In this document: piece by piece, positions 5,547-39,115 of the stretch
Numbering within the stretch: the first letter of the stretch is position 1
Layout: every line of letters starts with the position of its first letter
DNA from: Candidatus Zixiibacteriota bacterium
GTDB lineage: Bacteria > Zixibacteria > MSB-5A5 > GN15 > FEB-12
Length of the DNA: 39,378 nt
Direction of reading: 5' to 3'
NCBI GenBank assembly: GCA_019038695.1
Contig: JAHOYZ010000055.1
Location: 1 to 39,378, forward strand
The notes under the pieces: model-generated
The model's input: the letters and a program-made list of their open reading frames with translations, nothing else
The model's database searches: none
What the model was told of the DNA's origin: nothing
Made by a program: the position numbers and the translations under genes

Positions 5547-5611
5547 TCCTGACTCCCTGGTGTTCCTTGCGGTGTCATCGGTCTATTTATCATCCGCGCT
5601 TCCATACTATA

Positions 5612-5640
5612 CACATACTGCTCGTATGGGCAGTTGTCAA
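5612..5640 (-). promoter_or_regulatory. lexA promoter with candidate LexA operator
   Basis: On the minus strand TTGACA (5635-5640) is followed after 17 bases by TATGTG (5612-5617), an acceptable -35 and weak -10. The perfect inverted repeat CATAC-N5-GTATG (5614-5628) covers the downstream half of the spacer and part of the -10. A second pair, CCATAC (5602-5607) and GTATGG (5624-5629), overlaps it. The position is what one expects for a self-repressing LexA; binding is an inference. Confidence 0.6.
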
Positions 5641-5682: not shown

Positions 5683-5717
5683 ATAAAACGGCCCGCAAAC
5701 CGATAGGCTGCGGGCCG
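5683..5717 (-). terminator. Rho-independent terminator of the EF-G-like gene
   Basis: On the minus strand the 9-bp perfect stem CGGCCCGCA/TGCGGGCCG (arms 5709-5717 and 5689-5697) has an 11-base loop and is followed by TTTTATT. It lies 25 bases after the stop codon at 5742 and separates that gene from the lexA promoter. Confidence 0.85.
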
Positions 5718-18159: not shown

Positions 18160-20475
18160 ATGGCTCATGACGAGATATTTGTCGAACTCTCGCACGAAGC
18201 GAGAAAACTTAGGGTTTCTGATGCGGAATTGGCGAACAAGATAGAACGAATATACTCTTTCGCCAAAGATAATCTATACCCGCATATGACCCTGCCCGGA
18301 TTCCCAGACCATGGAGAAAAGCACGTCAAGCATGTTCTTCAACTCGCTGATGATCTGTTAGCTGGCATGAAGAACTGGGATCACATGGAGCCAGGCGAGA
18401 GTTTTCTGCTAGTCGCCGCTATCCTACTTCACGACACTGGTCAGCTCAGGCAGGATGTCTGGTATCGCTCTCCCGCCGAGACTCACGCCAAACATGCTGA
18501 GGAATCAAGAAGGATAGTACTTGAGAATGCAGATGCGTTCAATTTGTCGCGGCCAGAGGCAGAGATAGTTTCGCAAATCTGCTATTCGCACGGAGTCGGC
18601 GATTATAAGACACTATTGGATGAGAGTTGGTCAGTGCAGGGGCTTGGAGAGTGTCGACTTCATTGTATCATGGCGATTCTACGGATTGCAGACTTGCTAG
18701 ATTTGGCACACTCACGAGCTCCGTCATTTGTCTACGGGCTTGTCAGGATGCCGATTTCAAGCAAGAAGCACTGGGAGAGGCACGCCATCATAGATGATGT
18801 GAGGGTTATCCAGAGGGACAGGACGATTAGGTTGTATGCCAAGCCGAAGACCATCCATCAGGAGGACGCCCTGCATCGCTTCATGATCTGGTTGAACTCC
18901 GAACTGGATATTGCAAAGCCTGACCTGCGTCGCCTGGGTCTGCAATACACTAAGATCGAATCACGCATTGATACTCGTGCATTTTGTAAGCCGCTGGTAC
19001 CAACACCGGCCAACAACCCTTTCCCCGGTCTCAAGCCATTCGGTTCTGCTGATGCAGACTCCTTCTTCGGCAGAGAGGACCAAATAGCGGAAGTAATCGA
19101 TCGCATGCGGATAAAAGATTTGCTTGTAATCGTTGGGGAATCGGGTGCAGGGAAGACCTCCCTCGTCGACGCCGGTGTATTTGCAGAACTCAAGCGAATG
19201 GGGCATACGACTTCCAAGTACCGCTTCACCAGGTCAATCGGCAGATCGTTTCAGAGGAACCTCGCCGGGGCGCTTGACCTGGACATCAAGAGTAAACTTC
19301 CAAGAATCAGTAGTCTATTGGAACGGAGAGCCAAGCGCGGCGCATTTCACTGTGTGCATATTGATCAGTTTGAAGAGTTGTTCACCTTGGACACCTTTGC
19401 TCCCGAAGTTACATCGGGCTTCAAGGCAATAGTCTCTCTACTGGAGAAAATGCCCGGTCTCAAGATACTTATCTCTATGAGGAGTGACTTTCTTGTAAAG
19501 CTGTTGTCACTGTCGAAGAGGATTCCTCTTAAAATGTCAAACGAGGACATTTGGGAGCTTGGCCTTATGAGCAAGGAAGAGGCTCGCCAGGCGGCTGAGA
19601 AGCCAATGAGGCTATTCGAGAATTTGGACTGGGAAGGCGGCCTTGTCCAAGCCCTCTTGAGCGATCTAGCCGGTTCTGGACCTGGTGTGTACCCTCCCTA
19701 CCTGTCCTTAGTGTGCAGACACCTGGTGGATAGGCAATTCCGGCTGCTAATGCCACTCTATCGGTCGGGAACGACTGGCCGATACAGTCTAGGGCTGAAT
19801 TTGTATGAAGATTTGGGAAAGGCTGATTCTATTATAAACGATCACTTTCAGAGTATTTTGGACGGTTTTTCGAGAAAAGAAAGAGTAGTCATTGACCAGA
19901 TATTGTCCAAGATGATCTTGGAATCTAATTGGAAAAAACCAATACTTGAAGAGGAAGTCGAGAAGATCAATGCCGACATGATCGAGCAGGACAGGATTGA
20001 CGTCGCAAAGGCGATGAGCAAGCTGGTCGCTGCGCGTGTTGTGAAGCGAATCTACTGTGGCTATGAATTGTTACATGACATTCTGGCCAGGAAGTTGGTC
20101 AAGATCCTGCAGCGCCCAGTTCCTACATCTTCGGTTGTCCAGAAGGTGATAGAACACATTGAAAGTAACAAATCCCAGCCCTTGTCTACCGATGATCTGG
20201 CCAAGGTCGCTGGGTTGAGTCCATCCCAACTGCGACGGAAGTTCCAGAAAGAACTCGATTATTCCCCTCAGCAATATCGTCATATCCTTGTGCTCAAGGA
20301 CGCAAAGTATCTTCTGCAAACAACAGAGAACAATCTCACGAGCATAGCTAAGGCATGTGGCTTCAGCAGTCTCACGGTCTTTTCACGTGTGTTCAAGAAG
20401 TACAACAAGCAAAAGTCTCCAAGTGAATTCAGGAGAGACTCACGCTTACAAGGTGTTGCTTCACTGAACACGTGA
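18160..20475 (+). CDS. HD-domain / nSTAND1 NTPase / AraC-HTH fusion protein
   Basis: 771 aa, no signal peptide or membrane span, so cytosolic. Residues about 20-260 are an HD metal-dependent phosphohydrolase-like domain with His51, His55, HD at 91-92, His112, His144 and Asp178, resembling the HD-CE type seen in conflict proteins. Residues about 285-655 are an nSTAND1-type P-loop NTPase: entry motif NPFPGLKPF...DSFFGRE, Walker A GESGAGKTS (326-334), Walker B HIDQFEELF (400-408), sensor-like ISMRSDF (438-444) and the C-terminal YELLHDILAR element. Residues about 656-760 are a complete AraC-type double helix-turn-helix. STAND proteins are ATP-driven switches, and MalT shows they can carry a DNA-binding end. 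Here that end is AraC, and an HD enzyme sits where effectors or sensors usually sit. No WD40 or TPR sensor is visible. It stands alone between osmC and glnA. Confidence 0.85.
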   Translation: MAHDEIFVELSHEARKLRVSDAELANKIERIYSFAKDNLYPHMTLPGFPDHGEKHVKHVLQLADDLLAGMKNWDHMEPGESFLLVAAILLHDTGQLRQDVWYRSPAETHAKHAEESRRIVLENADAFNLSRPEAEIVSQICYSHGVGDYKTLLDESWSVQGLGECRLHCIMAILRIADLLDLAHSRAPSFVYGLVRMPISSKKHWERHAIIDDVRVIQRDRTIRLYAKPKTIHQEDALHRFMIWLNSELDIAKPDLRRLGLQYTKIESRIDTRAFCKPLVPTPANNPFPGLKPFGSADADSFFGREDQIAEVIDRMRIKDLLVIVGESGAGKTSLVDAGVFAELKRMGHTTSKYRFTRSIGRSFQRNLAGALDLDIKSKLPRISSLLERRAKRGAFHCVHIDQFEELFTLDTFAPEVTSGFKAIVSLLEKMPGLKILISMRSDFLVKLLSLSKRIPLKMSNEDIWELGLMSKEEARQAAEKPMRLFENLDWEGGLVQALLSDLAGSGPGVYPPYLSLVCRHLVDRQFRLLMPLYRSGTTGRYSLGLNLYEDLGKADSIINDHFQSILDGFSRKERVVIDQILSKMILESNWKKPILEEEVEKINADMIEQDRIDVAKAMSKLVAARVVKRIYCGYELLHDILARKLVKILQRPVPTSSVVQKVIEHIESNKSQPLSTDDLAKVAGLSPSQLRRKFQKELDYSPQQYRHILVLKDAKYLLQTTENNLTSIAKACGFSSLTVFSRVFKKYNKQKSPSEFRRDSRLQGVASLNT

Positions 20476-37753: not shown

Positions 37754-39115
37754 TCAGGGGCACGGCTCAGGAGGAGGGCCACCGGTAAACAGGTAATTTA
37801 CAAGGTAAGTAAGGTCAGCGATGTTGATTTCACCGTCAGCATTCACATCCGTCTCCAGCAACGACGGTGGGGGAGGACCACCGACGAATAAATAGGCGAC
37901 CAGGTAGGTAAGGTCTGCAATATTTATCTCGTCGTTCTGGATGCCGTCAATGTTGCCGCGTATCCCAACACAGGAAGTCACTACCTCACACGAATCCCCA
38001 ACGCCGTCAAAATCACTGTCTTCCTGCAGTGGATTGTACACAGTTGGGCAGTTGTCGTCACTGGCGCAGAAACCGTCGTTGTCGTTGTCGTTGAGTGGAT
38101 CGTCGGGGCACGCATCGCAGGCGTCCCCGATACCATCAGTATCAGCATCGTCCTGAGACGGGTTGGAGATATCGGGGCAGTTGTCACAGGCATCTCCGAT
38201 TGTATCCCCGTCGGTATCGGTCTGGACGTAATTGCCGACCGTCAAACAATTATCGCATGAGTCGCCAATATTGTCACTATCGATGTCGGCTTGGTCAGGA
38301 TTTATAATCTCAATGCAATTATCGCACATATCACCCACGCCGTCCGCATCGGTATCCAACTGGTCTATATTGGGGACATCGGGACAGTTATCTTCCCACG
38401 AGCACAATTCGTCGCCATCGGAATCGTCACAGCAGTTCATAGAGTGTGTCTCGCCATTGACCCAGTAGAATGGATAGCCGGGGTTGTCCACCCAATATGC
38501 ATAAGACCCGTACCATTCCGAACAGCAAATCCAGTAGAAAATGTCACAGGTGTCGGGCGCGGTGTTGACATCGAACACAACAGATGGCAATCTGGCAGAA
38601 TCAGGTTCAGTATATTCAATGCCGAGGAAAAACGGACCCTCCAGGCAACAGGGCTCCGGGAAGACAATTGTCCCCACATCCGGAAATCCAAACGTGGTCT
38701 CGTCGCATACAGCCGACACGCGACACAACTCATCACCGGGGCCATAACATGAATCTCCGGGCACAGCCAGATCAAAAACAACAATGTCTATTTCCACCGG
38801 CCAAACGAAACCGCCTGCTGAGGAGCCATACAGAATGAGATCCACTGTAGAGATTTCAAAGGGGTAAGTAGGAGTGCCGCATTCTGCCGGCTCATGGTAT
38901 GAAACAATCCGATCCCCCTGTACCCATCCGGATGAAAAGCCGTACAATGTGTCCTGATCAACATGCCGATAGAGAGTGCACTCAGCCCGATCCTGGCTGT
39001 GCTGGATTGTTGTCTTGTCAATTACGAACTCGGGTGTTTTTCTGGTAATGTTCGATCCAAGGGCAGTAGGTACAATCCACGCCAGTACTAGCACAATCAA
39101 TAGGGTTCGACGCAT
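37754..39115 (-). CDS. Secreted TSP3-repeat protein with dockerin-like module
   Basis: 453 aa from the ATG at 39115, directly behind AAGGAGGAAGTC; an in-frame ATG at 39139 lies upstream of that ribosome site. Signal peptide about 1-21 (MRRTLLIVLVLAWIVPTALGS). Residues about 25-215 form an unrecognised beta-rich domain with CCLEGPFFLGIEYTEPD and YWICCSEWYGSYAYWVDNPGYPFYW, typical of secreted proteins of this group. Residues about 220-375 are TSP3 repeats (DxDxDGxGDxCDNC). The end, CVGIRGNIDG, then INIADLTYLVAYLFVGG and INIADLTYLVNYLFTGG, is the dockerin-like pair. It has a strong promoter at 39225-39253. Function unknown. Confidence 0.85.
   Translation of the reverse strand: MRRTLLIVLVLAWIVPTALGSNITRKTPEFVIDKTTIQHSQDRAECTLYRHVDQDTLYGFSSGWVQGDRIVSYHEPAECGTPTYPFEISTVDLILYGSSAGGFVWPVEIDIVVFDLAVPGDSCYGPGDELCRVSAVCDETTFGFPDVGTIVFPEPCCLEGPFFLGIEYTEPDSARLPSVVFDVNTAPDTCDIFYWICCSEWYGSYAYWVDNPGYPFYWVNGETHSMNCCDDSDGDELCSWEDNCPDVPNIDQLDTDADGVGDMCDNCIEIINPDQADIDSDNIGDSCDNCLTVGNYVQTDTDGDTIGDACDNCPDISNPSQDDADTDGIGDACDACPDDPLNDNDNDGFCASDDNCPTVYNPLQEDSDFDGVGDSCEVVTSCVGIRGNIDGIQNDEINIADLTYLVAYLFVGGPPPPSLLETDVNADGEINIADLTYLVNYLFTGGPPPEPCP

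Follow-up and report, generated by a model that had tools for sequence, protein, structure and literature searches.

The window, the whole 39,378-nucleotide stretch of DNA analysed here, comes from a Candidatus Zixiibacteriota genome (G000; 58 contigs, 3.28 Mb) and carries a lexA gene on its minus strand (Table 1). The encoded protein was matched by TIGR00498 (cut-off 110.95) over residues 3-203 of 204 and is thus full-length. The cleavage dipeptide Ala-Gly and the catalytic Ser and Lys were found at E. coli positions 84, 85, 119 and 156. The nearest named relatives found are the LexA proteins of four Candidatus Zixiibacteriota MAGs (59-75% identity); the lexA upstream region of one of these is identical to that of G036, a genome of the same family as G000. 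The only other match to the LexA model in G000 spans residues 83-198 and adjoins a Y-family polymerase gene. Given its partial extent and this neighbour, we regard it as umuD-like.

Table 1. Sequence features at the lexA locus of the window, with the recA palindrome found elsewhere in the same genome
Feature	Coordinates	Strand	Basis or remark
lexA, 204 aa	4932..5546	minus	TIGR00498, 217.6 bits; aligns to E. coli LexA structures
-10 element TATGTG, 17-bp spacing, weak consensus match	5612..5617	minus	shares the operator's last base
CATAC-N5-GTATG repeat, CATACTGCTCGTATG	5614..5628	none	operator centre and -10 overlapping by coincidence
LexA operator (predicted), ACTGCCCATACGAGCAGT	5617..5634	minus	box conserved in orthologous lexA upstreams; 22.4 bits
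-35 element TTGACA, directly abutting the operator	5635..5640	minus	sequence and orthologue alignment
Terminator-like hairpin upstream of the lexA promoter	5689..5702	minus	consensus scan only
recA palindrome	G000:C42:7804-7820 (L211)		in relatives, upstream of recA in L150-L179

Read on the minus strand, the lexA promoter has the order TTGACA-ACTGCCCATACGAGCAGT-ATGTG. Its 18-bp centre is an ACTG-N10-CAGT inverted repeat, symmetric at seven of nine base pairs, with CTGC-N8-GCAG arms and a TGCNC-N4-GNGCA core. The hexamer TATAGT (5611-5606) is a better -10 match than TATGTG, but lies 23 bp from the -35 element. The terminator-like hairpin is consistent with a separate lexA transcription unit, as judged from a consensus scan that gave two sites against 1.3 expected in the scanned region.

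To score the box we used a weight matrix trained on lexA sites only. With the own genus excluded (91 sites), the box reached 22.4 bits; no equally high site was found in 3 Mb of random sequence matched in GC content, and a single one reached 20 bits or more. The second-best site of the window had only 14.3 bits with the full matrix. This match (at 38035) and one of 12.0 bits (at 20463) were dropped, as they lie inside or at the end of open reading frames.

An earlier note on this DNA had picked out a different symmetry of the same promoter, CATAC-N5-GTATG. The perfect 5+5 repeat CATACTGCTCGTATG is indeed present, as are the wider pair CCATAC (5602-5607)/GTATGG (5624-5629) and the consensus TTGACA on the minus strand (5640-5635). 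It was misplaced in being put between TTGACA and the -10 element: its left arm CATAC (5614-5618) sits on TATGTG itself (5617-5612, 17-bp spacer). The note saw no E. coli-type box, and exact CTGT-N8-ACAG is absent, but the CTG-N10-CAG arms of the overlapping repeat at 5617-5634 had been overlooked. We likewise found no Gram-positive GAAC-N4-GTTC arms in the window's box. Allowing one mismatch, the window holds two matches to the CATAC motif where 1.15 are expected (two or more also turned up in 32 of 100 shuffles), and the whole genome holds two exact sites against one for a reversed control. Such counts lie near expectation, so the repeat alone carries little weight.

Conservation of the box at lexA promoters

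Upstream regions of the main lexA gene were collected from 100 of the 105 LexA-bearing genomes of the phylum, with 400 bp taken where available (six were shorter). Copies that were fragments or lay at contig ends (G047, G060, G078, G091, G094) were left out, as were several weak second copies. The LexA search covered 132 genomes; the searches for the box pattern, imuA and the recA palindrome covered 129. Families are denoted by the labels f1-f19, as assigned by the search tool.

The shared layout was found to be TTGACA followed directly by ACTGNNCANNTGNGCAGT, with a -10 element starting at the last T of the box. At least 10 of the 13 positions of ACTGNNCANNTGNGCAGT were matched in 93 of the 100 upstreams, whereas 20 dinucleotide shuffles of the same set averaged 3.75 such upstreams and never exceeded 7. 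TTGA was present within 8 bases 5' of the box in 86 of these 93; in one of the other seven (G129) the match does not lie at the promoter. The seven upstreams below 10/13 comprise three with 9/13 and TTGACA (G014, G015, G122), three of a GTTC type (G123, G124, G131) and G103, which has its box beyond the 400 bp, where pattern search alone recovered it (L263). In the alignment of the 100 orthologues, the TTGACA base at each of the six positions 5' of the box was kept in 74-99, and the -10 positions began with T in 100, A in 94 and T in 66, and ended with T in 70. An unbiased count of dyads in the last 260 bp of the 100 upstreams gave CTGC-N8-GCAG and ACTG-N10-CAGT as the top palindromic 4-mers, with 30 upstreams each; ATAC-N5-GTAT occurred in one.

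Ala84-Gly85 and Ser119 were kept in 100 of 100 aligned main LexA proteins and Lys156 in 99 (one gap), and the recognition helix starts STNGVR in 90 of 100 (SPNAAE in E. coli). We infer that LexA is the protein that binds the box. This is supported by the co-occurrence of the two: among near-complete genomes (at least 90% complete, at most 5% contaminated), a pattern match was found in 52 of 70 with a LexA match and in 2 of 8 without (one-sided Fisher p = 0.009, a comparison confounded by ancestry, as five of the eight LexA-less genomes come from f7 and f16, and for which seven genome handles were deduced by elimination). Second LexA-like proteins with different helices and no upstream box were also observed (L125-L132, L134).

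Predicted targets beyond lexA

The pattern TGNMCANNTGNGCAGTA was searched in 129 genomes and gave 132 matches in 88 of them, against 9 for the reversed control. Of these, 39 lie at lexA, 69 at a helicase operon, 7 at imuA and 4 at dinB-like genes, together 119 of 132. Three more are second readings, i.e. the opposite strand of palindromic sites already counted, and ten were unassigned, about the number given by the control. The 93 non-lexA matches were retrieved and sorted into these classes by tblastn and inspection: 66 of the helicase class by a helicase match within 1 kb and three by a Zn-ribbon, and six of the imuA class by tblastn, plus L218, an opposite-strand reading of the G024 imuA box. 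The box thus recurs at predicted SOS-type genes beyond lexA.

With the weight matrix, a box of 18 bits or more was found in 17 of 20 imuA upstreams (600 bp); one of the three without had only 300 bp of sequence. TTGACA was absent from the 10 bases 5' of the box at all 17 imuA sites, and the box is therefore not merely a conserved promoter. The ImuA protein is RecA-like (51.8 bits to Pfam PF00154), and in the one locus tested a PF00817 (IMS) protein follows it. A dinB-like Y-family polymerase gene carries the box in four genomes, with 179.6 bits to PF00817 for one. The names imuA and dinB were given from sequence features, without an equivalog model above cut-off.

The most frequent target of the pattern, with 69 matches, is the helicase operon with Lon downstream. 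It is made up of a short ORF for a Cys-rich Zn-ribbon and a gene for an SF2 helicase, although the search expression did not recognise the Zn-ribbon ORF in every one of the 69. In the window's genome its box is ACTGCACAAATGTGCAGT at C21:23775 (28.5 bits). The first ORF there encodes 152 residues ending in CPDCGSGMVRLGSCFSCPACGWGSCC and resembles, though weakly (E 1.6e-4), the C-terminal tail of B12-dependent ribonucleotide reductase; the L203 miniprotein matched this tail at E 1.3e-7. A 921-residue DEAD-box helicase follows, with the archaeal-type PRK02362 (268 bits, cut-off 887) and Hel308 (208 bits, cut-off 1200) as best NCBIfam models. As both scores are below their cut-offs, we call it only 'Hel308-like'. 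Lon protease comes next (TIGR00763, 696.6 bits). Operon layout was read in 20 fetched loci with long enough contigs (L304-L323) and in the window's genome (L210:1-6211, G000:C21). All 21 of these loci, drawn from the 69, have a same-strand Lon match downstream; its distance from the helicase match is at most 300 bp in 16 and 1.0-3.2 kb in five. Co-transcription of the helicase operon with Lon is inferred.

In the window's genome, lexA and the helicase operon were the only targets found. No imuA match was obtained there at E 1e-15, and the sole Y-family polymerase match adjoins the umuD-like gene. This umuD/umuC-like locus (L002, G000:C7:175159-178506) has no LexA box, the best score in the locus being 1.8 bits. 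A symmetric pattern with one mismatch gave 23 sites in the genome, the same number as in the reversed control, and for this reason its weak sites were set aside. Of the 15 read in context, only those at lexA and the helicase operon stand out, and a site at C8:40304 (15.3 bits) was discarded because it probably arose by chance. In a different genome, a pattern box lies 5' of an ORF that by eye resembles an HD-domain dNTP hydrolase (L227, G050:C21). This gene is a possible extra LexA target in that one genome.

The recA gene is a core SOS target elsewhere. Here, no LexA box was found in 31 recA upstreams (the 30 best-scoring loci among 118 genomes with a match, none of them from f19, plus the window's genome), over 0.34 to 1.5 kb in the relatives and 2.9 kb in G000. 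The best score was 10.3 bits; a half-matching site, ACTGAACAAATGTTTTAT, lies 64 bp upstream in G113 (9.0 bits). Box presence at imuA and at recA differed with a Fisher p of 8e-11, calculated on related and hence not independent genomes. By these counts recA appears to be excluded from the targets of the box.

A different symmetry, TGAC(A/G)-N5-TGTCA, was found in 20 of the 31 recA upstreams, mostly as ACTGACA-N5-TGTCAGT. It lies 137-198 bp 5' of the start of the RecA match (in G000 the distance was taken from a point near the start codon), and GTGATATATT follows at a similar distance in 16 of the 20. Its presence suggests that recA may have a separate regulator. CTGACA-N5-TGTCAG gave 264 sites in the 129 genomes, present in 83 of them, against 8 in the reversed control. 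Among 26 of these loci that were read, comM/yifB lies downstream in four (L328, L338, L345, L349) and dnaE in one (L347). One copy in the window's genome lies 5' of a REP-associated tyrosine transposase gene (L336). This copy, together with closely spaced pairs in G018, indicates that some copies may be dispersed repeats. The palindrome is not a feature of LexA-box promoters, as a match of at least 11/12 was found upstream of only 1 of 102 LexA-box readings. At one locus (L333, G007), however, what looks by eye like one and the same helicase gene has upstream of it both the recA palindrome and a LexA-like box, ACCGCACATCTGTGCAGT, preceded by TTGACA.

The palindrome may resemble the actinobacterial RecA-NDp/PafBC promoter motif. 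The window's genome encodes two WYL-domain proteins, which is no proof of a role at the palindrome. Identity with the RecA-NDp/PafBC motif was not claimed, since that motif is called non-palindromic in PMC6789036.

Alternative readings of the box

The earlier note had proposed CATAC-N5-GTATG itself as a candidate for the local LexA operator. The repeat lies in the right promoter, is perfect over 5+5 bases and has 12 of its 15 bases inside the 18-bp box. Conservation at orthologous lexA promoters had been set beforehand as the test able to refute it. The exact motif was found in 1 of 100 upstreams, the window's own, with not even a 9/10 match in the other 99; it was also absent from 20 imuA and 30 recA upstreams, and its genome-wide count hardly differed from the control. 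We therefore rejected the motif, and that it is nevertheless the operator seems exceedingly improbable. The centre of the box (CATACG) and its right arm running into the -10 element (GTATG) mirror each other by chance, which accounts for the symmetry. What held of the proposal was a lineage-specific operator at this promoter; the bases assigned to it were wrong, and the true box lies at 5617-5634. Could the conserved block then be a strong promoter only, TTGACA-17-TATNNT, with no operator in it? In favour of this, the box at lexA is flanked by conserved -35 and -10 positions, and most helicase-operon sites also have TTGACA before the box. Against it, the spacer of 17 bp shows conservation and palindromic symmetry of its own, and none of the 17 imuA sites has TTGACA within the 10 bases 5' of the box. 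We consider a promoter alone very unlikely.

The box might also be real and be bound by another repressor, for example the second S24/LexA-like protein of some genomes. Additional LexA-like copies do occur in several genomes; most LexA-bearing ones gave a single match (E 1e-20). Ten second copies or fragments had no box upstream (best 7-9/13, within the range of the shuffles), and nine of them have recognition helices other than the STNGVR type (SPATV.EH and others); the tenth (G022) is a fragment of the main type. There is thus little probability that another repressor is the one acting here.

These comparisons give good support to the idea that the lexA promoter holds an autoregulatory LexA operator specific to this lineage. 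From the sequence evidence, the 18-bp imperfect palindrome is very probably the LexA operator, at which LexA would occlude RNA polymerase until released through RecA, and the CATAC repeat a by-product of it. Binding as a dimer, occlusion of the polymerase and RecA-stimulated self-cleavage are established LexA biology. At this promoter a LexA dimer would sit on ACTGCCCATACGAGCAGT between the -35 TTGACA and the -10 element, and bound LexA would sterically exclude RNA polymerase and so repress its own gene. Activated RecA would then trigger LexA self-cleavage and release. The operator is ordinary in kind. Notable are the range of the motif within one phylum, the helicase-Lon operon and a set of predicted targets that lacks recA.

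Relation to known LexA boxes

Mazon et al. (2004) reportedly described the LexA box of Fibrobacter succinogenes as TGCNC-N4-GNGCA and are said to have proposed a stepwise evolution of LexA motifs between the Gram-positive, Fibrobacter and E. coli types. The window's box contains TGCCCATACGAGCA, an exact match to this Fibrobacter motif. Unlike that motif, zixibacterial boxes add flanking AC...GT, and their first arm is often TGAAC. The F. succinogenes LexA has been characterised (PMC3091678).

For E. coli, the box is given as TACTG(TA)5CAGTA or CTGT-N8-ACAG (PMC9578287, PMC8565304). The window's box shares with it the outer arms ACTG...CAGT, the CTG-N10-CAG spacing and its site in the lexA promoter. 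It differs in the fourth arm base, which is C/G (CTGC-N8-GCAG), i.e. in one base per arm; the interior is alternating TA in E. coli, whereas that of the window type tends to CA-N2-TG. The LexA/DinR box of Bacillus subtilis reads CGAAC-N4-GTTCG (PMC3091678). It is approached by a GTTC right arm in f18, f19 and G010, but boxes of the window and most of the phylum end in GNGCA, with CAGT next in nearly all. Another little-studied phylum, the Balneolaeota, also had its LexA motif found from lexA promoters and then confirmed by EMSA (PMC7739468). That motif, TTACACATATTTTWTACATA, is by contrast a direct repeat of other sequence, and its regulon includes recA.

The aligned lexA sites of f18, f19 and G010 (a member of f8) have the GTTC right arm followed by CAGTA. 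G010 carries exact GAACATCCGTTC, and GAAC-N4-GTTC is approached in f18 and f19. On the LexA tree, the ten rows with the GTTC form require two changes, also forced by the well-supported branches (the bootstrap being not fully settled), so that this form arose or was lost at least twice. The transition from CTGC-N8-GCAG to GAAC-N4-GTTC at the same place of the lexA promoter provides natural intermediates and makes stepwise evolution of the motif testable.

Our literature search returned no work on the SOS response or LexA of Zixibacteria. For this phylum, which is almost uncultured, the results provide a candidate LexA box and a regulon core that can be tested. A broader proposition, which we hold to be evenly balanced, is that its DNA-damage response is rewired. 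Within the phylum the box would range over the E. coli, Fibrobacter and Gram-positive types, and through it LexA would control its own gene, translesion polymerases and a widespread operon for a Zn-ribbon miniprotein resembling the tail of class II ribonucleotide reductase, a Hel308-like helicase and Lon. The recA gene would stand outside LexA control and be driven via ACTGACA-N5-TGTCAGT, also found 5' of comM/yifB and dnaE in some genomes.

Finally, a cause of the GTTC boxes was sought in the recognition helix. In f18, and in most members of f19, the residue at E. coli position 45 is Glu or Asp. This explanation was not adopted and is suggestive only, because Asp is also found in f3, f5, f6, f11 and f17, which have the other box type.
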